Positions 8,408-25,417 of a stretch of DNA of 64,000 nt are shown here, in pieces (within the stretch, counting starts at the first letter, position 1; every line of letters starts with the position of its first letter). This stretch comes from Methylomonas sp. 11b (lineage in GTDB: Bacteria > Pseudomonadota > Gammaproteobacteria > Methylococcales > Methylomonadaceae): positions 3,901,741-3,965,740 of the forward strand of contig NZ_KI911557.1 of the NCBI RefSeq assembly GCF_000515215.1, read 5' to 3'. The notes beneath the pieces were generated by a model that saw nothing but the letters and a program-made list of their open reading frames with translations, made no database searches and was not told where the DNA came from. Made by a program: the position numbers and the translations under genes.

Positions 8408-8500
8408 GTCGTAAGGACCGCGACAAACATGCCACATCCGCCGCGAGACGGAGCCGGAAAGCCACGGGTCTTGGAGATTAAGACAGCCGGGTTACCTGCA
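8408..8500 (+). promoter_or_regulatory. Candidate c-di-GMP-I (GEMM) riboswitch
   Basis: The core reads GCGACAAAC, then a stem closed by a GCGA tetraloop (TCCGCC-GCGA-GACGGA), then GGAAAGCCACGGGTCT ... AGACAGCCGGGTTACC. This order of tetraloop stem, AAAGCCACGGGTCT and AGCCGGGTTACC follows the GEMM-I consensus. The tetraloop would dock to a receptor in the second stem. GTAA near 8411 can pair with TTAC in the 3' end to close the base stem. It sits 70-160 bp before the start of the first secreted protein gene at 8572, as expected for leader control. Downstream AGTTAA and TTAACT can pair and may form the expression platform. The 5' half departs more from consensus, so I keep this as a strong candidate. 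Confidence 0.62.
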
Positions 8501-10336: not shown

Positions 10337-11310
10337 AAATCAATAATCATCGATCATCCGGCAGGCTGTTGGCCGCGAAACTATTAAATTCCCTGGATTC
10401 GCCAATCCCGTGCAGGCTGGAATCCACTACAGTCGCTCAACCTCCGTCTGCGCCGGAACGACGCTATTTAGGAGCCGGGTTACTACTGGCGGTTTGCGGT
10501 ATTTTAATGTCCGGCCATGTCCACGCCGCGACAGTAAGCGGCGGTGCGCTGGTCCTTAACCTAAACCGCGATGTGCTAATCGCCAGCGTCGATGTGAATG
10601 ACTATCCGGACACACCCACCGCCGACTTTCCGATTTGCTGCCGGCCTTCTATTTATCTGGAAGAGTTTTACGACGCTTCGGCGGCATCAAAAACCTTTGT
10701 ACAGTTGCGGGACGGCAATGCTCCGGATTTATACGATCTGGTGTCCGATGAAATTCCGGCGACGGGGCTGCAATTTAGTGTCAACGGGTTGAGTCCGATA
10801 GTTAATCCGGGCGGGCGGCAGAACAGAAATACTAATTTCGCGTTCGAGCCCGGCAATTTATTCGGCACTGCCAGCGGTAGTATCGGTCTGGGCGGCGTCA
10901 TGCGGTTTAGAGTGGACGTCGAGCCACCAACCAATAGAGTGTTGTTGGGCGACATGACCTTGGAATACGATCCTGCTCTTGAAGCGGCTACGCCCGGGCG
11001 TTCCGGTTGGGTGATTACTAATCATATAGGTTTCGATGCGGGCGGTTTTGAGCTGTTTGATGTCACCACCGCAATAGTCGGGGATACTTTAAGTCTCAAC
11101 GGCAATCTGGGTTTAGGGTGGGGCTTCGATCATCTGGGCGCTCGCGACGCCCGTTTGCGCGATACCCGCATCGGCACCTTCAGCTTTCAAACCACGGTGG
11201 TGTCGGGAGAGCTGCCTGCGGCAGTACCGGTGCCGATGACGGTATGGCTGTTTGCCAGCGGCTTGGCTGGACTGGTTCTGAATGGCCGATCTAAAAGAGA
11301 GATCGTCTGA
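10333..11310 (+). CDS. Secreted protein with VPVP-type sorting tail and a repeat-extended leader
   Basis: The protein has 325 residues. It shares GGALVLNLNRDVLIAS with the preceding protein's N-terminal motif and ends VPVPMTVWLFASGLAGLVL then GRSKRE. The hydrophobic signal core (LGAGLLLAVCGILMSG, cleavage near HVHA-ATVS) begins only at about residue 46. The extra residues, about 20-44, are encoded by bases that look like the dispersed repeat seen between genes here (near 10395-10465). No in-frame ATG lies between the repeat and the signal core, so the long leader seems to be used. The gene overlaps its upstream neighbour by ATGA and its downstream neighbour by TGATG. Confidence 0.75.
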   Translation: MKINNHRSSGRLLAAKLLNSLDSPIPCRLESTTVAQPPSAPERRYLGAGLLLAVCGILMSGHVHAATVSGGALVLNLNRDVLIASVDVNDYPDTPTADFPICCRPSIYLEEFYDASAASKTFVQLRDGNAPDLYDLVSDEIPATGLQFSVNGLSPIVNPGGRQNRNTNFAFEPGNLFGTASGSIGLGGVMRFRVDVEPPTNRVLLGDMTLEYDPALEAATPGRSGWVITNHIGFDAGGFELFDVTTAIVGDTLSLNGNLGLGWGFDHLGARDARLRDTRIGTFSFQTTVVSGELPAAVPVPMTVWLFASGLAGLVLNGRSKREIV

Positions 11311-13100
11311 TGAAACAGGATGAAGTTGCAGGATTGACTCGGCCCCTAACTGCCGTTCGCCCAGAGCCTGGCGAATGGCGCACACCATTTTTCCGTAACG
11401 TCAGGCTGGTAAAAATCGCGGCAGGCTTAGGAGTCGGTTTGACATTGACGACAGCCGCGCAGGCAGGGCCTTCCCCGGTAATAAGCTTTGGACAGTATCG
11501 TAGTCATCAGGTCAATGTCGATGCCGGCGGCCAAAACATTGTCGGTGACAAAGGCAACGAACCGACGCTGGCCTTGAATCCGCTGAATCCCGCGAATATC
11601 GTTGTGGGCTGGCGTAGGTTCGATTCGCCGCCCACTGCTGTCAAACACGGCGGCTATGCCAATAGCTTCGACGGCGGCGTCAGTTGGGGTACCGGCATGC
11701 TGCCGGCCTTGCCGCTGCAAACCCGCACCGATCCGGTGTTGGAGGTTGATGGCCAGGGGAATTTTTATTACCAGTCCCTGGCGATATCGGATAGCACGTC
11801 GGTGTTTAAATCCAGCGACGGCGGCGTGACCTGGTCGGAGCCGGTGTATCAGTTTAAAGGCGACAAGAACTGGCTGGCCATCGATAAAACCGGGGGTCCC
11901 AGCGACGGGAATATTTACAGCACCTGGCGGCGGCCGGCCGATAGCAACCCCGATCCAAATTATGTGCCCAAGTATTTCAGCCGTTCCACGGATGGTGGGT
12001 TGAGTTACCAGGAGCCGGATGCGGCGTTGCCGGTGGCAAACTTCGGTTTCGGCCGGCTGGCCATCGGCCCGGACGGCGAGGTTTATTTATTTGGCGTCGA
12101 TGAAACGATTTTGTCCGTCAGTGCCTTGGGCATAGTGCGTAGCGGGCATTATTTCCTGAAATCGGTTGATGCCAAAGATCCTAATACCTCGCCCAGCTTT
12201 AGCGCGCAAAAAATCGATATGGGCGGCCACGGCATGATGTTCCTGTCGCCGAGTTTGCAGTTACCCAATCCGTTGGGCGGCGACGGTGATGTGCAAATCG
12301 CTGCCGATCAATCGGCCGGGCCGTTGCGCGGCAATATTTATTTGCTGGCACACGTCACGCCCTACGCTTGGCAAGCGGGCGACGATCCGCAGGATATACA
12401 TTTCGTGCGCAGCAGCGACGGCGGCGCCACTTGGTCGGCACCGGTACGTGTGAATGACGATCCACCCGGCGCCACGGCTTATCAATGGTTTGCTATGCTA
12501 GGCGTGGCGGCCAATTCCCGCATCGACGCGGTGTGGTACGACACCCGCAACGGCAGCGGCAGCGCGCCGTATCGCTATTCCCAGCTTTACTACGCCTACT
12601 CCTGGGATGGTGGCGCAACCTGGAGCAAAAACCAGGCGGTGACGCCCGTGTTCAATACGCATCTGCCGTATAACATCGTGAACGGCGAAGAGCGGCAAGG
12701 CGACAAAATGGGTGATTACACCCAGTTAGTCTCCGACGCCAACGGCGCACACATTGCCTACACCGCCACCTACCACGGCGAGCAGGATGTGTATTACTTG
12801 AACGTATTTCCGGATTGCAATAGCAACGGCAAGTCGGACGTGCTGGATATTCAAAACCGCGTTAGCGGCGATACCAACTTCAATCATCTACCGGATAGCT
12901 GCGAGAACATCGCAGTAAAAGGCGATCTGGACGGTGACCGCGATGTCGATCAATTGGATTTGAACGTGGTCGTTGCTGCCCGCAACAAACCGGCTTCCGG
13001 CGTAAACGATCCGCGCGATCTGGACAAAAACGGCGTGATCAATGCGTTGGATGTGCGCAAGCTGACTTTACTGTGTACGCGGTTACGCTGTGCTGTGTAA
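11310..13100 (+). CDS. Secreted sialidase-fold (BNR/Asp-box) protein with dockerin-like C-terminus
   Basis: The product has 596 residues. A signal-type segment lies at about 35-52 (AAGLGVGLTLTTAAQA). A beta-propeller body with at least four or five Asp boxes follows (SFDGGVSW, SSDGGVTW, STDGGLSY, SSDGGATW, SWDGGATW). The last ~80 residues contain calcium-loop repeats of dockerin type I: DLDGDRDVDQLDLNVVV and DLDKNGVINALDVRKL, with a weaker one before (DCNSNGKSDVLD). Asp-box propellers include sialidases and many non-enzymatic binding proteins. I do not see enough of the arginine triad to claim sialidase activity. The gene begins on the stop codon of the previous gene. The next gene encodes a cohesin-like protein, which suggests a possible binding pair. 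Confidence 0.8.
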   Translation: MKQDEVAGLTRPLTAVRPEPGEWRTPFFRNVRLVKIAAGLGVGLTLTTAAQAGPSPVISFGQYRSHQVNVDAGGQNIVGDKGNEPTLALNPLNPANIVVGWRRFDSPPTAVKHGGYANSFDGGVSWGTGMLPALPLQTRTDPVLEVDGQGNFYYQSLAISDSTSVFKSSDGGVTWSEPVYQFKGDKNWLAIDKTGGPSDGNIYSTWRRPADSNPDPNYVPKYFSRSTDGGLSYQEPDAALPVANFGFGRLAIGPDGEVYLFGVDETILSVSALGIVRSGHYFLKSVDAKDPNTSPSFSAQKIDMGGHGMMFLSPSLQLPNPLGGDGDVQIAADQSAGPLRGNIYLLAHVTPYAWQAGDDPQDIHFVRSSDGGATWSAPVRVNDDPPGATAYQWFAMLGVAANSRIDAVWYDTRNGSGSAPYRYSQLYYAYSWDGGATWSKNQAVTPVFNTHLPYNIVNGEERQGDKMGDYTQLVSDANGAHIAYTATYHGEQDVYYLNVFPDCNSNGKSDVLDIQNRVSGDTNFNHLPDSCENIAVKGDLDGDRDVDQLDLNVVVAARNKPASGVNDPRDLDKNGVINALDVRKLTLLCTRLRCAV

Positions 13101-13159
13101 CCAGACCGGCGCCAGTCGGCCCGCAATCGACACACCTGACCGGCTATATGAACCGAAAG

Positions 13160-13196
13160 TATCCCGTCATTCCCGCGCACGCGGGAATCCAGGATG
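13160..13196. repeat. Short palindromic dispersed repeat
   Basis: The palindrome CGTCATTCCCGCGCACGCGG with GAATCCAGG following is the common dispersed repeat type also seen in altered form near 8160 and 10390. It lies between the dockerin-like gene and the cohesin-like gene. Confidence 0.6.
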
Positions 13197-13217
13197 CCAA
13201 ATATAGGAATAACAACG

Positions 13218-13808
13218 ATGATGAAACAATTCAAAGCAGGCCTGGCCGGCATAGCTTTATACGCGGCCAGCGGTGTCGCCGATGCTGCCATTGATTTACA
13301 TTTCACGCCGCTTAGCCAAACCGCCGACGCCATTGAAATTGGCTTGAGCATTTCCGGCTTGGGCGACGCCGCGTTAGGAACGTATGACTTTAATATTCAG
13401 TTCGATCCGACGCATTTGGCGTTTGCCGGCGTGGCTTTCGGCGACCCGCTTCTGGGTGACGAGTTGGATGTGTTTGATTTGGGTGGAAACAGCGTTGCCG
13501 CCGATTTGCTGGCTCCGGGTATGGTGAACCTATTCGAGTCGTCCTTGGACAACGCGGCGGATTTGCAAACCCTGCAAGCCGATAGCTTTACATTGGCGAT
13601 CATCCGCTTCAATGTGCTGATCGGCGGTAGCAGTGAGCTTGATTTACTGATCAACAGTTTGGCGGATGCCAGCGGGGATGGCTTGTCGGTAAACACCGCG
13701 CCGTTTAACGTCAACACTGCCGCCGCCGTGCCCTTGCCGGGGATGTTTTGGCCGATGGTTGGTGGGTTTTGGGTGGTGTTTAAGCGGCGTAGGGTTAAGT
13801 CAATGTAG
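13218..13808 (+). CDS. Secreted cohesin-like domain protein with VPLPG tail
   Basis: From the ATG at 13218 (AGGAA upstream) the protein is 196 residues. A signal peptide ends at GVADA-AIDL. The body has the cohesin-type pattern: LGTYDFNIQFDPTHLAFAGV, then LQADSFTLAIIRFNVL, then LDLLINSLADASGDGL. The tail VPLPGMFWPMVGGFWVVFKRR is a weakened version of the sorting signal in the three genes upstream. Cohesin modules bind dockerins in cellulosomes, but the fold also occurs widely without a known partner. Here the upstream neighbour has a dockerin-like C-terminus, so a pair is plausible but not proven. Confidence 0.72.
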   Translation: MMKQFKAGLAGIALYAASGVADAAIDLHFTPLSQTADAIEIGLSISGLGDAALGTYDFNIQFDPTHLAFAGVAFGDPLLGDELDVFDLGGNSVAADLLAPGMVNLFESSLDNAADLQTLQADSFTLAIIRFNVLIGGSSELDLLINSLADASGDGLSVNTAPFNVNTAAAVPLPGMFWPMVGGFWVVFKRRRVKSM

Positions 13809-13945
13809 CCTGGATGAAGCAAAGCGTAATCCAGGGGCAACTTTGGGAATAATCCGAGTTACATTGTTCTTCTTCCTGGCAAGTTGCTAAGCATGTGTTT
13901 GGGTGATATACGGAAACTTTATAATCACTTGTTAGGGTTCTCACT

Positions 13946-14443
13946 ATGCCCATGACCAACGACGAGTTTCAACTCTTTGTTGAAACTGCCAATGCTGAAC
14001 TCCGAAATAAACAAACGATATTGGCCGATGATTATGGTCTCGGAAGTGCCGGACGTTGGTGGTTCGAGCAAACGACGGGAAATCTTCAGTTTTTTGATGC
14101 CGCAGACAATTTATCCGTTGAAACGGATGTGATTGATATTGGCAGTTATTCACCCAAGTCCAATTCGTGGAAATGGGCGTGGGGTAATGATTCAGTATTG
14201 CCGTGGCTACGGCAAAGAGCAGAAAAACTCAAAGAGCTTGAAGCCATCACAGGCATAGAGATCTTCGGGTATGAAAATGCTTTCACGGTCGAAGATGAGT
14301 CAATGGCTTGGGAATTAACTGCTATGTGCCTAAAGCATCTCGGAGCCGTAGGTTGCTACAGATGTCCGTCGTCTAAACCCGGTGGGCCAACTACGTTCCT
14401 TGCCATCATGTCAATCAAGAGGTGCGGCAAAAATGCACCCTAA
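13946..14443 (+). CDS. DUF6882-like protein
   Basis: The protein is 165 residues, predicted cytosolic. Motifs such as AGRWWFEQTTGNLQFFDA, IGSYSPKSNSWKWAWGNDS and YENAFTVEDESMAWELTAM match the small DUF6882 group (named from memory), which has no assigned reaction. The last ~25 residues look less conserved and may run into non-native sequence, because the reading frame continues into a Cys/Pro-rich tail. There are no obvious operon partners. Confidence 0.6.
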   Translation: MPMTNDEFQLFVETANAELRNKQTILADDYGLGSAGRWWFEQTTGNLQFFDAADNLSVETDVIDIGSYSPKSNSWKWAWGNDSVLPWLRQRAEKLKELEAITGIEIFGYENAFTVEDESMAWELTAMCLKHLGAVGCYRCPSSKPGGPTTFLAIMSIKRCGKNAP

Positions 14444-14646
14444 CCCAGCGCTCAACCTCACTCCCTTTGGTCGCAGCACGCTACGGGATAAAGCCAAGTA
14501 GGTCAAGGTGCGCGTTAGCGTTCCCCGTCATATCCAAAAGCTAGTATTGAAATGTCACATAACCGCTTACGCGGCAATGTGACCTACGGCTGCGATTCGC
14601 ACGAAAGGCGAAAGCCGTATTCCCCATTGGCATCAAGTGCGACATT
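14444..14646. other. Intergenic stretch, no supported gene
   Basis: About 200 bp. It holds repeat-like pieces (GTAGGTCAAGGTGCGCGTTA, CGGCAATGTGACCTACGGC) that resemble degraded dispersed repeats. I see no coding frame and no terminator. Confidence 0.4.
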
Positions 14647-18673: not shown

Positions 18674-18853
18674 CAATCTCCTGCGGCGTTCGAGCAGTAC
18701 TGGGTGTTTCCTGAACCTGTTTTTACCCCGGAAACTTTTTGCCATTCATGGTGCGCATGCCTGTTTATTCAGGAAGCCTGATTGACTGGATTTGGTTTCC
18801 ACTTGAACCTTCGGTTCAAGGACGAAAGTATCAGACGGCGCAGGCGGGAGATC
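18674..18853 (+). ncRNA. ssrS: 6S RNA
   Basis: About 180 nt directly after zapA. The ends pair (AATCTCCTGC at 18675 with GCAGGCGGGAGAT near 18840-18852), which gives the terminal stem. The strongly conserved 3' segment CTTGAACCTTCGGTTCAAGG followed by a purine run and GGCGCAGGCGGGAGAT matches the 6S pattern. 6S RNA mimics an open promoter and sequesters the sigma70 holoenzyme in stationary phase. Position and both ends agree, so the call is strong. Confidence 0.87.
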
Positions 18854-19080
18854 TCTTGATTTTTCTTGTCTCGATTTCCTGTGCTCTTTCGATATTCCCC
18901 CACGTGTTTGTTGTTAGTCTGCTGGTAGCTCGCGCGCAGGGTGGTATAAGGCACGGTGACTATAATCGCGGCTCAAAATTCGGTTAGCTAGCGCTGTATT
19001 GACTAAGTCCGTCCCCCAGTATCTCTTGATAACATGCCCCTTTCCTTTTCGCTCCGCTGGACAACAACGATTACGCGATA
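18854..19080. other. Spacer between 6S RNA and the GspE-like gene
   Basis: About 225 bp with no supported gene. It holds a T-rich stretch after the 6S 3' end (ATCTCTTGATTTTTCTTG). The promoter of the next gene must lie here; no consensus stands out. Confidence 0.35.
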
Positions 19081-23530: not shown

Positions 23531-23817
23531 TGGATTTGTCGGGTGGGCGCGTGGTTGAAGTTTATGTGTCGCTGGCGCGACGGCTGGTTTTAATGTCGGG
23601 TCTCGGCCCGACAGCCGAGTAACTTTTCTTTGTTTGGCCAAAGAAAAGTCACCAAAAGAAACGCCACCCGGATGCCGCTTTGATCCTGCGCTCCAGAGCT
23701 TTTATCGAGGGTCGACAGAAGGGGCTTCCCAGTCCCTCCGCCGACGTGCGCATCCCTGCCGCACCCCTTCGGGCTATTCTCGATAAAAGCTCCGGTGCTC
23801 GGCGCGGCATACGGGAG
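23531..23817 (+). repeat. Structured multi-hairpin repeat, copy 1
   Basis: About 290 bp carrying successive inverted repeats: 23568-23581 (GTCGC/GCGAC), 23595-23612 (GTCGGG/CCCGAC), 23623-23648 (CTTTTCTTTG/CAAAGAAAAG) and a long outer stem with arms 23696-23709 and 23779-23792 (GAGCTTTTATCGAG, perfect). Two further hairpins lie inside the outer stem. A second copy lies inverted at 25081-25373, and the stems differ by paired changes. Confidence 0.85.
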
Positions 23818-23861
23818 AACCCCCCGCGCGAAATCCGACAGCTTATTATTTACAAAGTTTT

Positions 23862-23936
23862 GTAGGGTGCATTAGCGGTAGCGTAATGCGCCGAATGATT
23901 TAAAGCCAACATTCGGCGAAATACGGCTCGCCCTAC
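23862..23936. repeat. Dispersed palindromic repeat (REP-like)
   Basis: The outer ends GTAGGG (23862) and CCCTAC (23931) pair. Inside, CGCCGAATG (23889-23897) pairs perfectly with CATTCGGCG (23910-23918). The unit has no coding potential and resembles the short extragenic repeats elsewhere in the window. Confidence 0.7.
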
Positions 23937-24065
23937 GTATTGCAACTTATGGCCTTAAAATTGTGCCTTACGGCCCTAATCTATGGACCTTCTCCAGTTG
24001 ATGCGTAACGCTCAGATTAATCGGAGGCAAAAGTATAGCTTTTGGAGTCCGAGTTGAATAGTTAG

Positions 24066-24872
24066 TTAGAACAGCCCCTTAACAGAGGAGGCAAACCCGA
24101 TGCACCCAATCAGAAATACGGCTACTCCCCAAGCCCAATGCTCTTTTGCGAGTTCAAGAAGGATTGATGGGTGTAGGCCGCTGACCTCCAGCCAAGACGA
24201 GTTTGTCTTTAGTGAGCCATCAAGAACACGCTCAAGTATGTTGGACATGACATCAACTTTCCGCAAGGTTGATTGATGTAATTTAATAAATTCTTTGTTT
24301 TCGAATGCTGCAGCCTCCTCTTTTCCGTTAAGAAGGTCTTTGGCTGTTATTTTGTTGAGATCCAAAAGACTATGGAGTCGTCCATTGCTCCCATGAGAAA
24401 TGTAGGCAACGCCATAGAGTGATATGAGTTCGCGCGCCAAATCGATTTTTCTTCGATCATCAATGATGTATGGATTCCCTCCAAGAACTTTATAGCGGTG
24501 TTCTATAGCCTGGAATCCGTAGTTGATATCTCGCATGTTCCAGTGGATGAAGTTACTAATGCTTTGAGACTTCAAATAGTCAAAGTACTCATCAAGCATA
24601 CTTCGCTCTAGGTCGTCGTATTTCTCCGGGATTTCAGCGAAGGCTACATGCTGCTGTTCGGCACTCTTATGAATAGAGAATGAGTGTGTTTGCCCAGTGG
24701 AGAAGTTGCGTATTGCAATTGACGTAATTCTGGGTGTATGTCCGTCCTTGATGTCGTAGAAGGACTCGCAAGAGTAGTGAATTACGAAATGTAGTTCTCG
24801 TTTCTCATCGATCTCCGCAAGGCGCTTTTGGGCCTCACGGCGGCGTTTTAGCTTTGTTAGTTCTTTTCCCAT
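24066..24872 (-). CDS. Unknown protein with possible exonuclease-like fold and C-terminal membrane helix
   Basis: The protein has 268 residues and is encoded by DNA clearly richer in A+T than its neighbours. The N-terminus is a basic coiled segment (KELTKLKRRREAQKRLAE). The middle has a pattern that could be an RNase H/DEDD-type exonuclease fold: LHFVIHYSCESFYDI, ITSIAIRNFSTGQTHSF, then FIHWNMRDINYGFQAIEHRY and KIDLARELISLYG, with acidic residues at plausible sites. This is a weak guess from pattern only. The last 20 residues form one hydrophobic helix (GVAVFLIGCIGFASSV). It stands alone between two inverted structured repeats, which suggests acquired DNA. A membrane-tethered effector is one possibility. 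Confidence 0.6.
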   Translation of the reverse strand: MGKELTKLKRRREAQKRLAEIDEKRELHFVIHYSCESFYDIKDGHTPRITSIAIRNFSTGQTHSFSIHKSAEQQHVAFAEIPEKYDDLERSMLDEYFDYLKSQSISNFIHWNMRDINYGFQAIEHRYKVLGGNPYIIDDRRKIDLARELISLYGVAYISHGSNGRLHSLLDLNKITAKDLLNGKEEAAAFENKEFIKLHQSTLRKVDVMSNILERVLDGSLKTNSSWLEVSGLHPSILLELAKEHWAWGVAVFLIGCIGFASSVKGLF

Positions 24873-25080
24873 ATGCTGAATGCAGTTGATCTAACAAGTA
24901 ATTTTATGTTTCTGTATATTTTCCCAAATCAGATGATAGCTGATTTCCGTTAATTTGGTGAAAGTTTGGCCGGCAACGCGTTTCTACTCGTCAATTCAGT
25001 ATGGATACTAATAGAGAGTTGTCTGGAACTACATTGAAAAGTGATTCGACTTGGTTTGACCTGCGATTTTGGGACGGGTT
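24873..25080. other. AT-rich spacer upstream of the unknown gene
   Basis: About 200 bp, A+T rich, with the likely promoter of the gene at 24066-24872. It contains an ATCAGATGATAGCTGAT inverted repeat near 24930. No coding frame is convincing. Confidence 0.4.
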
Positions 25081-25373
25081 AGTCCCGCATGCCGCGCCGA
25101 GCACCGGAGCTTTTGAACGGAACAGCCCGTTAGGGGCGCCGCAGGGATGCGGCGCGTTGCCGAAGGGGCAGGAAGCCCCTTTCGGCAACCCCGTTCAAAA
25201 GCTTCGGAGCGCAGGGAATAGGCGGCATCCGGGTGTCTTTTCTTTTGGATACTTTTCTTTGGACAAGCAAAGAAAAGTATCGCGGTTGTCGGTCCGCGAA
25301 CCGACATTAAACTTAGCCGTCGCGATAGCGACACTTTAACCCGCGTGGGCACAAAAACCCTTGCCCACCCTAC
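25081..25373 (-). repeat. Structured multi-hairpin repeat, copy 2 (inverted)
   Basis: Inverted relative to copy 1. The outer stem arms are 25108-25120 (AGCTTTTGAACGG) and 25191-25203 (CCGTTCAAAAGCT). Inside are a strong GTTGCCGAA/TTCGGCAAC hairpin with GGGGC/GCCCC and a GCGCCGCA/TGCGGCGC hairpin. Further out are 25251-25278 (ACTTTTCTTTG/CAAAGAAAAGT), 25288-25305 (GTCGGT/ACCGAC on the repeat's own strand) and 25319-25332 (GTCGC/GCGAC). A last GTGGGC/GCCCAC hairpin lies at 25345-25368. Confidence 0.85.
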
Positions 25374-25417
25374 GCCCAGCAAAGATGACGACCAATTTAG
25401 AATGACCTTAACAAAGC

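Follow-up and report, generated by a model that had tools for sequence, protein, structure and literature searches.

The locus considered here is a 64,000-nucleotide (nt) stretch of the genome of Methylomonas sp. 11b (positions 3901741-3965740 of a 5.41-Mb contig; hereafter the window). It contains two copies of a repeat in inverted orientation, which raises the question of what these repeats are and why they retain a predicted fold while the sequence of their stems changes. The first-pass annotation of this DNA had recognised the pair and the matched changes in its stems; the fact that the pair brackets a gene had not been noticed. From the analysis described below it is proposed, with a probability that we place at roughly one half, that the repeats fold and, as a pair, delimit a mobile, non-autonomous slot which resembles REPINs (inverted doublets of repetitive extragenic palindromic (REP) sequences) and which would be moved as single-stranded DNA (ssDNA) by an enzyme of the Y1 transposase or RAYT (REP-associated tyrosine transposase) type. 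Throughout, the ends are described from the outside to the inside of the slot and on the strand on which they were read in that annotation.

The repeat is dispersed through the genome. A blastn search of the genome returned at least 42 matches (40 of 69 candidates scored), and a covariance model of the core of the repeat (R1) identified at least 58 copies at full strength on scoring 150 of 2255 candidates; the 15 remaining matches to this model were, apart from a single weak one, known copies read on the opposite strand. Neighbouring copies lie within 4 kb of each other in 25 cases, compared to 2.4 expected under even placement, and 21 of these 25 neighbours are convergent (two are divergent and two point in the same direction), a degree of convergence that was reached by none of 20000 strand shuffles. 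The copies thus form the inverted doublets in intergenic space that are characteristic of REPINs. Nineteen of the 24 convergent pairs of this genome (a few of which have one weak or partial partner) contain at least one reading frame of at least 50 codons, while the other five are minimal forms enclosing just 72-231 bp; five distant pairs similarly enclose 95-186 bp. The ends sit mostly as convergent pairs around variable cargo, which is usually one gene. An arrangement unlike the usual pairs is seen at locus L096, where three copies in the same orientation (positions 2019151, 2020068 and 2020988 of the genome of strain 11b) are spaced approximately 920 bp apart.

The repeat also extends beyond this genome, as established by a survey in which the copy counts per genome are lower bounds. 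Within the genus, 34 of 37 genomes (strain 11b included) match the core model, as do 62 of 151 genomes of the order; a draw of 369 genomes from the class added 23 that lie outside the order. In 24 diverged copies, the parts usually discernible are hairpin 3 and the core, and often hairpins 1 and 2 as well. Beyond the genus, convergence is seen in 13 of 18 neighbouring pairs, with two divergent and three pointing the same way, in a sample for which some loci were chosen because a pair was visible and in which one convergent pair spans a housekeeping gene (L167).

To follow the slots between species, the flanks of twelve of them were searched in the 37 genus genomes and the corresponding loci fetched, after which cargo was compared by blastp (reading frames of at least 90 codons) in 35 loci at six sites, those of strain 11b included. 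Loci for which there was a single flank or a single copy (L049, L063, L077, L078, L079 and L081) and two loci of site L024a without detectable ends (L066 and L074) were left out, and extra copies beside the slot were set aside in L048, L054, L057 and L060; in L047 the second end was located from the flank and not by detection, and a single flank matched well in L050 and L080. These 35 orthologous loci, whose ends are retained, hold 33 distinct first genes. At site L015 (14 loci) one protein alone is common to any two loci, and at site L024a (eight loci) one KAP protein and one RAYT are each common to two; at site L028 all five cargo genes differ, at the window site one gene is common to two of four loci, and at sites L010 and L030 the two cargo genes differ at each. 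The inner 60-190 bp adjoining the ends are conserved within the three best-sampled sites. Cargo is thus swapped between species while the ends stay. Furthermore, some relatives lack the whole slot at an orthologous site: the flanks of site L015 are contiguous in at least 14 congeners, four of which were read and have no copy and 20-45 nt between two genes, and site L010 is empty in genome G007. An inversion switch was also considered; frequent flipping was rejected, since among the six sites the orientation of the cargo differs at the window site alone.

The cargo likewise differs between the pairs of strain 11b. Its guanine-plus-cytosine (GC) content (0.38-0.53) is lower than that outside (0.46-0.57) in most, though not all, of these pairs, and ranges from 0.34 to 0.49 in the 35 orthologous loci. 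Ten of 20 cargo proteins from strain 11b gave a Pfam match at E 0.01, some of them below the cut-off, including a GNAT acetyltransferase, an Mrr-type nuclease, an HNH protein, an LprI-type lysozyme inhibitor, ankyrin repeats, a KAP NTPase and a deaminase. When ten cargo proteins of this strain were compared with PADLOC, the KAP NTPase matched PDC-S20 (512 bits) and the deaminase matched dCTPase (543 bits), with two further, weak matches. Five of ten proteins from congeners and one distant genome matched Pfam families (DUF1152, DUF3644, DUF4357, DUF3825 and AbiU2).

Each end is composed of hairpin 1 (GTGTCGCT..CGCGAC), hairpin 2, which occurs as GTCGGG/CCCGAC or GTCGGT/ACCGAC, hairpin 3 (ACTTTTCTTTG..CAAAGAAAAGT) and a core of approximately 150 nt, in which a long outer stem surrounds three hairpins, the last being short and nearly invariant (CCC/GGG). 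The outer edge of the copies is sharp. Sequence comparison confirmed the inverted pair (Table 1), together with the difference quoted for its outer stem (ATCGAG versus GAACGG), the two hairpin 2 alleles and constant loops such as GCATCCCTGC; the first-pass annotation had, however, drawn the pair too wide at both ends, the copies being 251 and 252 nt long. Similarly, its branched fold with inner hairpins was retained, although hairpins 1 and 3 lie outside the part to which it had assigned the fold, and its three-way junction had to be abandoned, as the third hairpin within the outer stem makes the branch point larger. The folding stability of ssDNA relative to shuffled sequence corresponds to z = -10.6 for copy 2 and z = -5.4 for copy 1, in which the two larger inner core stems are imperfect. 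A long variant of the end (approximately 320-390 nt), possibly with one extra hairpin, occurs in L012, L014, L020, L028 and others. Further short palindromic repeats, of types beginning GTAGGGTGCATTAGCG and GTGGGCAC, lie beside and inside the window slot (window 23862-23945 and 25337-25375), and similar ones mark the inner break points of two other slots.

The changes in the stems preserve pairing. In alignment A1, which comprises 42 of the 46 copies first known (58 were known later), 98.1% of cells are paired and 281 cells are changed on both sides compared to a shuffled mean of 77, while sliding the structure by one to three columns leaves at most 29 two-sided cells and at most 47.5% pairing; one of five measures applied to A1, the number of further pair types, was not above the shuffles (46 versus 49.7). 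Cells that depart from the commonest pair number 281 with another Watson-Crick pair and 63 with a wobble, mismatch or gap. Across 16 diverged copies from 11 genomes of other genera, 92.9% of cells are paired, two-sided changes are seen in 39 of 49 pairs, and covariation scores 0.665 versus 0.174 when shuffled, the alignment having been fitted to the structure and favouring it. Two-sided changes thus keep the fold across a bacterial class. Within each stem, the sequence of one arm can be predicted from that of the other (association 0.82-1.00). Variation in hairpin 2 is independent of that in the core stems; the core stems themselves are mutually linked, two of them fully. As the outer core stem is more tightly associated with its own other arm (0.90) than with the two larger hairpins that it encloses (0.71 and 0.58), the unit that is kept looks like the arm pair and not only a contiguous block. 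Part of the covariation is shared history, since in some slots the two ends carry the same stem alleles (an identical hairpin allele is found at both ends in L050 and in L053); mean identity is 0.88 between ends of orthologous slots, 0.86 between the two ends of one slot (29 slots) and 0.80 between different sites (154 sampled pairs). With this qualification, the earlier claim that paired changes preserve a folded form holds in strain 11b and in the other genera, and the covariation persists in the enlarged collection of copies, which that annotation had recommended along with a covariance model.

A strand test of A1 counted 281 Watson-Crick departures, five G.T, 30 A.C (six of which stem from one column pair) and 26 other mismatches. 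An A.C on the strand read is a G.T on its complement, and the complement is therefore the wobble-tolerant strand. This asymmetry is absent from two diverged sets (11 versus 12, and 34 versus 26), which were collected with the model of the other strand. The lack of G.U as a sign of DNA was given up after the wobble asymmetry appeared.

In the REPIN-like reading that we favour, each pair of ends would be a non-autonomous element, in effect a greatly enlarged REPIN, whose hairpins would be recognised on ssDNA by an enzyme acting in trans. This enzyme, most probably a Y1 transposase of the RAYT type, would have spread the slots via the single-stranded form. Once established, a slot would take in new genes by homologous recombination through the shared flanks and ends, while in a slot with an internal attI-like site, as in the window, an integron integrase might capture a cassette. 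No target-site duplication was detected in 23 pairs of strain 11b (p = 0.36 versus re-paired flanks), and a classical transposon with target duplication was rejected; Y1 enzymes are not expected to produce one. Searches of plasmids and phages yielded two 48-nt plasmid matches and no phage match. Genes for Y1/REP-type transposases, which the first-pass annotation had suggested seeking, are present in the genome (11 Pfam matches and 19 NCBIfam matches), and three of these genes lie inside slots of strain 11b. The distance to an end is 64-105 nt for ten different RAYT genes, which belong to two subfamilies, and 84-122 nt for three further ones, and at 18 other RAYT loci no copy occurs within the stretch read, although the sample is uneven because several of the close loci were fetched on account of their proximity. 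In a RAYT tree (which leaves out the interrupted genes L180 and L188 and includes one gene twice, as L005 and L023) the end-adjacent label is clustered, requiring three changes versus 9.7 when shuffled, and one end-adjacent subfamily occurs in three different slots. A Y1 enzyme is the best candidate for the activity that moves the slots, and is proposed only as such.

Several observations weigh against this proposal. The slots were not seen to move, and divergence at the empty sites is too great for the exact joint to be recognised. Sixteen of the 58 copies lie outside convergent full-strength pairs, and a partial partner is present for at least three of the sixteen. The slots of strain 11b share no transposase, and one draft genome (G129) has at least 20 copies and no RAYT that was found. 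RAYTs are present in 134 of the 151 order genomes (61 of 62 with copies and 73 of 89 without), and being nearly ubiquitous, their co-occurrence with copies says little. The other end-adjacent RAYT subfamily seems to come from one orthologous location close to site L024a, the RAYTs may be no more than cargo, and the wobble asymmetry is compatible with RNA too.

The window slot additionally bears features of an integron. Its 268-residue cargo protein has 32 relatives in named genomes, some of them short pieces. In the case of the Vibrio mimicus relative, an attC, which we take to be of the Vibrio cholerae repeat (VCR) type, lies directly 3' of the gene on an integron array contig with seven such cores, and attC-like sites also lie 3' of relatives in an Alcaligenaceae genome and in Desulfuromusa kysingii. 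With an attC-like site downstream of it, an attI-type core at its 5' boundary and a relative in an array, the window cargo is, as judged from these sites, an integron cassette. No integrase lies beside the attI-like site; the integron integrase (IntI) of strain 11b (439.6 bits) is located at 0.57 Mb and has a different attI, the window slot being at 3.93 Mb. At L115, a motif closely similar to the window attI is found 12 nt upstream of an integron-integrase frame, after which seven frames follow in one direction, and at L116 a weaker motif lies approximately 0.6 kb upstream of an integrase domain, the integrase being interrupted. Furthermore, when species are compared, the break point of the cargo at sites L015 and L028 falls at a GTTRRRY-like attI core.

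The wider search for such sites gave mixed results. An attI core scored above all 20 shuffles in four of 18 cargo regions of strain 11b, two of the four being without a GTT core. A scan for attC anchored on stop codons produced candidates after 15 of 57 cargo genes versus 24 of 31 genes of three array loci, while attC-type scores were slightly higher after cargo than after 172 background genes (p = 0.039), two cargo genes exceeding the best background. A first structural attC scan was not above shuffles at most slots. Two strict attC half-site patterns gave three matches in 711 kb, one of them the window site, and three in a reversed control; the patterns were too stringent, since they also failed to pick up the attC sites located 3' of the cargo gene's relatives. 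Among 86 candidates, mostly weak motif matches, the mean complementarity of the 5' core to the 3' site was 3.94 versus 3.72 when permuted (p = 0.005), nine sites were complementary at six or more of seven positions versus 4.5 (p = 0.03), and in four units the complement was exact versus 0.32 by permutation. IntI is found in 14 of the 37 genus genomes and is absent from four genomes with at least 50 copies, which are among the richest in slots. As attC is not general among the cargo genes, the integron accounts for some slots only.

Table 1. Coordinates of the slot ends, the window cargo with its putative integron sites, and RAYT genes close to ends (window positions unless a locus is named)
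Feature	Position	Strand	Remarks
Left end, copy 1	23566..23816	+	251 nt; outer end GTGTCGCT, inner end GCGGCATACGGGA
Hairpin 1, left end	23568..23581	+	GTCGC..GCGAC; consensus structure mapped onto copy 1
Hairpin 2, left end	23595..23612	+	GTCGGG/CCCGAC; consensus structure mapped onto copy 1
Hairpin 3, left end	23619..23652	+	ACTTTTCTTTG..CAAAGAAAAGT
Branched core, left end	23666..23816	+	portion covered by covariance model R1
Right end, copy 2	25083..25334	-	252 nt; inverted relative to copy 1
Branched core, right end	25083..25234	-	
Hairpin 3, right end	25248..25281	-	
Cargo gene	24066..24872	-	268 aa; without Pfam, NCBIfam or PADLOC match
attC-like site directly after cargo gene	24003..24067	-	AACTAAC .. 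TCGGA/TCCGA .. GTTACGC
attI-like site just upstream of cargo gene	24889..24920	-	AATATACAGAAACATAAAATTACTTGTTAGAT
RAYT genes shortly inside slot ends	L023 5049-5795; L024 13081-13611; L029 15293-15829; L067; L072; L193		

Other explanations of the ends have to be weighed against the proposed mobile slot. They might be structured RNA boundaries that stop or process transcripts on their way into or out of the slot and thereby shield host genes from a foreign gene. It is the complement strand, that of transcripts leaving the slot, which keeps wobble in strain 11b (30 A.C versus five G.T), and terminator-like hairpins for inward transcription occur in the outer part (including 23567-23582, 23602-23619 and 25299-25280). 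However, a terminator scan found four sites versus 2.9 expected from shuffles, the asymmetry is missing from the two diverged sets (collected, as noted, with the other-strand model), gene-free minimal pairs exist and no Rfam family matches the repeats at gathering score, such that we regard RNA insulators as unlikely. A known structured RNA was rejected, three weak matches at a relaxed Rfam threshold being to unrelated families. A slightly smaller chance still is given to a mutational or recombinational origin, in which template switching at palindromes and gene conversion would fix both arms jointly without selection on the fold. Such a process would suit the predominance of Watson-Crick departures (281 versus 63 to wobble, mismatch or gap), the whole hairpin alleles found at both slot ends, as in L050 and L053, and the linkage between several core stems (complete for two), whereas the diverged copies of other genera are still largely paired with two-sided changes, the arms of the outer core stem are matched despite their weaker linkage to the hairpins between them, and loop sequences are conserved as well.

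The exchange of cargo may also be approached without an enzyme specific to the ends. If these were old, passive repeats, they would merely provide homology for gene swapping after DNA uptake, for which the minimal mobile elements of Neisseria offer a parallel. The persistence of flanks and of the inner 60-190 bp at the best-sampled sites while the gene changes is in line with this, as are the alleles common to both ends of some slots; it nevertheless leaves the 58 dispersed copies, the convergent pairing, the empty sites and the maintenance of the fold unexplained, and we consider it less probable again than a mutational origin. The lowest estimate of the four goes to a dispersed integron, in which the slots would be single-cassette platforms, each with an attI, filled in trans by IntI, and which we judge improbable. 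It would explain the attI-like and attC-like sites of the window and the array relative of its cargo in V. mimicus, the similar attI upstream of IntI in L115 (weaker in L116), the species break points at GTTRRRY-like cores in two further slots, the four exact core/site complements and the small excess of attC-type scores. As a general account it does badly, given that an attI core stands out in just four of 18 cargo regions, that attC candidates are far rarer after cargo genes than in arrays and that four of the richest slot genomes lack IntI.

Comparison with known systems places the slots nearest to REPINs, for which inverted doublets and compensatory changes are reported in the portion of the source available (PMC3116915). 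Like REPINs and REP-RAYT systems, the slots involve high-copy intergenic palindromic repeats in inverted pairs with predicted ssDNA hairpins and compensatory changes, in a genome with Y1 RAYT genes, some of which lie beside slot ends. In contrast to the REP palindrome of 20-40 bp, the ends are 251-252 nt long with several hairpins and a branched core, and the gene enclosed by the pairs, which can reach several hundred codons, changes between species. The ends are too short for a transposase gene, and thus differ from the insertion-sequence ends of a composite transposon. Miniature inverted-repeat transposable elements (MITEs) are mentioned around class 1 integrons in Acinetobacter in the available part of another report (PMC10969869). 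The slots resemble MITEs in being intergenic and presumably non-autonomous, with terminal inverted repeats and gene-free minimal forms, and differ from them in that no target-site duplication was detected, no related autonomous insertion sequence was identified and the terminal repeats are far longer and structured. In its probable working, the slot is comparable to a REPIN with cargo, yet it departs from REPs in size, from MITEs in target duplication and from integrons in having no adjacent integrase.

Cassettes outside integrons, inserted via attG sites, are described by Loot 2024, as cited in the accessible passages of PMC11023631 and PMC12444791. The window cargo, with its attI-like and attC-like sites and array relative, resembles integron cassettes, clusters of attC sites lacking integrases (CALINs) and attG insertions; unlike integrons, the slots contain no integrase, mostly lack attI and attC, and are bracketed by inverted structured ends. 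Discrete bracketed genes are also a feature of the dif modules of Acinetobacter, whose bracketing sites are in inverted orientation. Their pdif sites belong to the short Xer type and occur mainly on plasmids, in contrast to the structured, chromosomal slot ends of 250 nt. The parts available of two reports describe these modules as discrete genes between recombination sites, shuffled among plasmids (PMC6449649, PMC13141974). Within the part of the open PubMed Central literature that was covered, subscription journals being outside its scope, no description of the present element was found.

A broader version of the mobile-slot proposal, which we put forward tentatively and regard as rather doubtful, is that of a class-wide slot system, in which empty brackets would spread by an ssDNA route and then act as one-gene sockets refilled by cassettes or recombination, sometimes with anti-phage genes. 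If true, genes that an integron would queue in one array would be held at dozens of separate places, and the ends, being searchable with a covariance model, would serve as a marker for hypervariable gene sockets. Each pair found would point to a recently swapped gene, at least two of which strongly match anti-phage models here. The system would also connect REP/RAYT repeats with integron cassettes, and would provide a natural test case for separating selection on folded DNA from selection on RNA.

A second unit, without brackets, was noted at window 13905-14530 (+). It comprises an attI-like site (13905-13937, GATATACGGAAACTTTATAATCACTTGTTAGGG), a 165-aa frame (13946-14443) and, right after the frame, a CCCTAAC core that is the exact complement of the 5' GTTAGGG; by these features it looks like an isolated integron cassette. 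At L091 (positions 555000-574900 of the genome of strain 11b), the region 10820-13804 includes a transposase gene (11362-12453, -), presumably IS630-like from its appearance, upstream of the integron integrase of this strain and ahead of the genes that come next, and one canonical attC half-site at 10820 (-). Elsewhere in the window, a cyclic di-GMP-I (c-di-GMP-I) riboswitch (8421-8499, +) and a 6S RNA (18675-18854, +) were identified above the Rfam gathering score, and nitrogenase genes are present.

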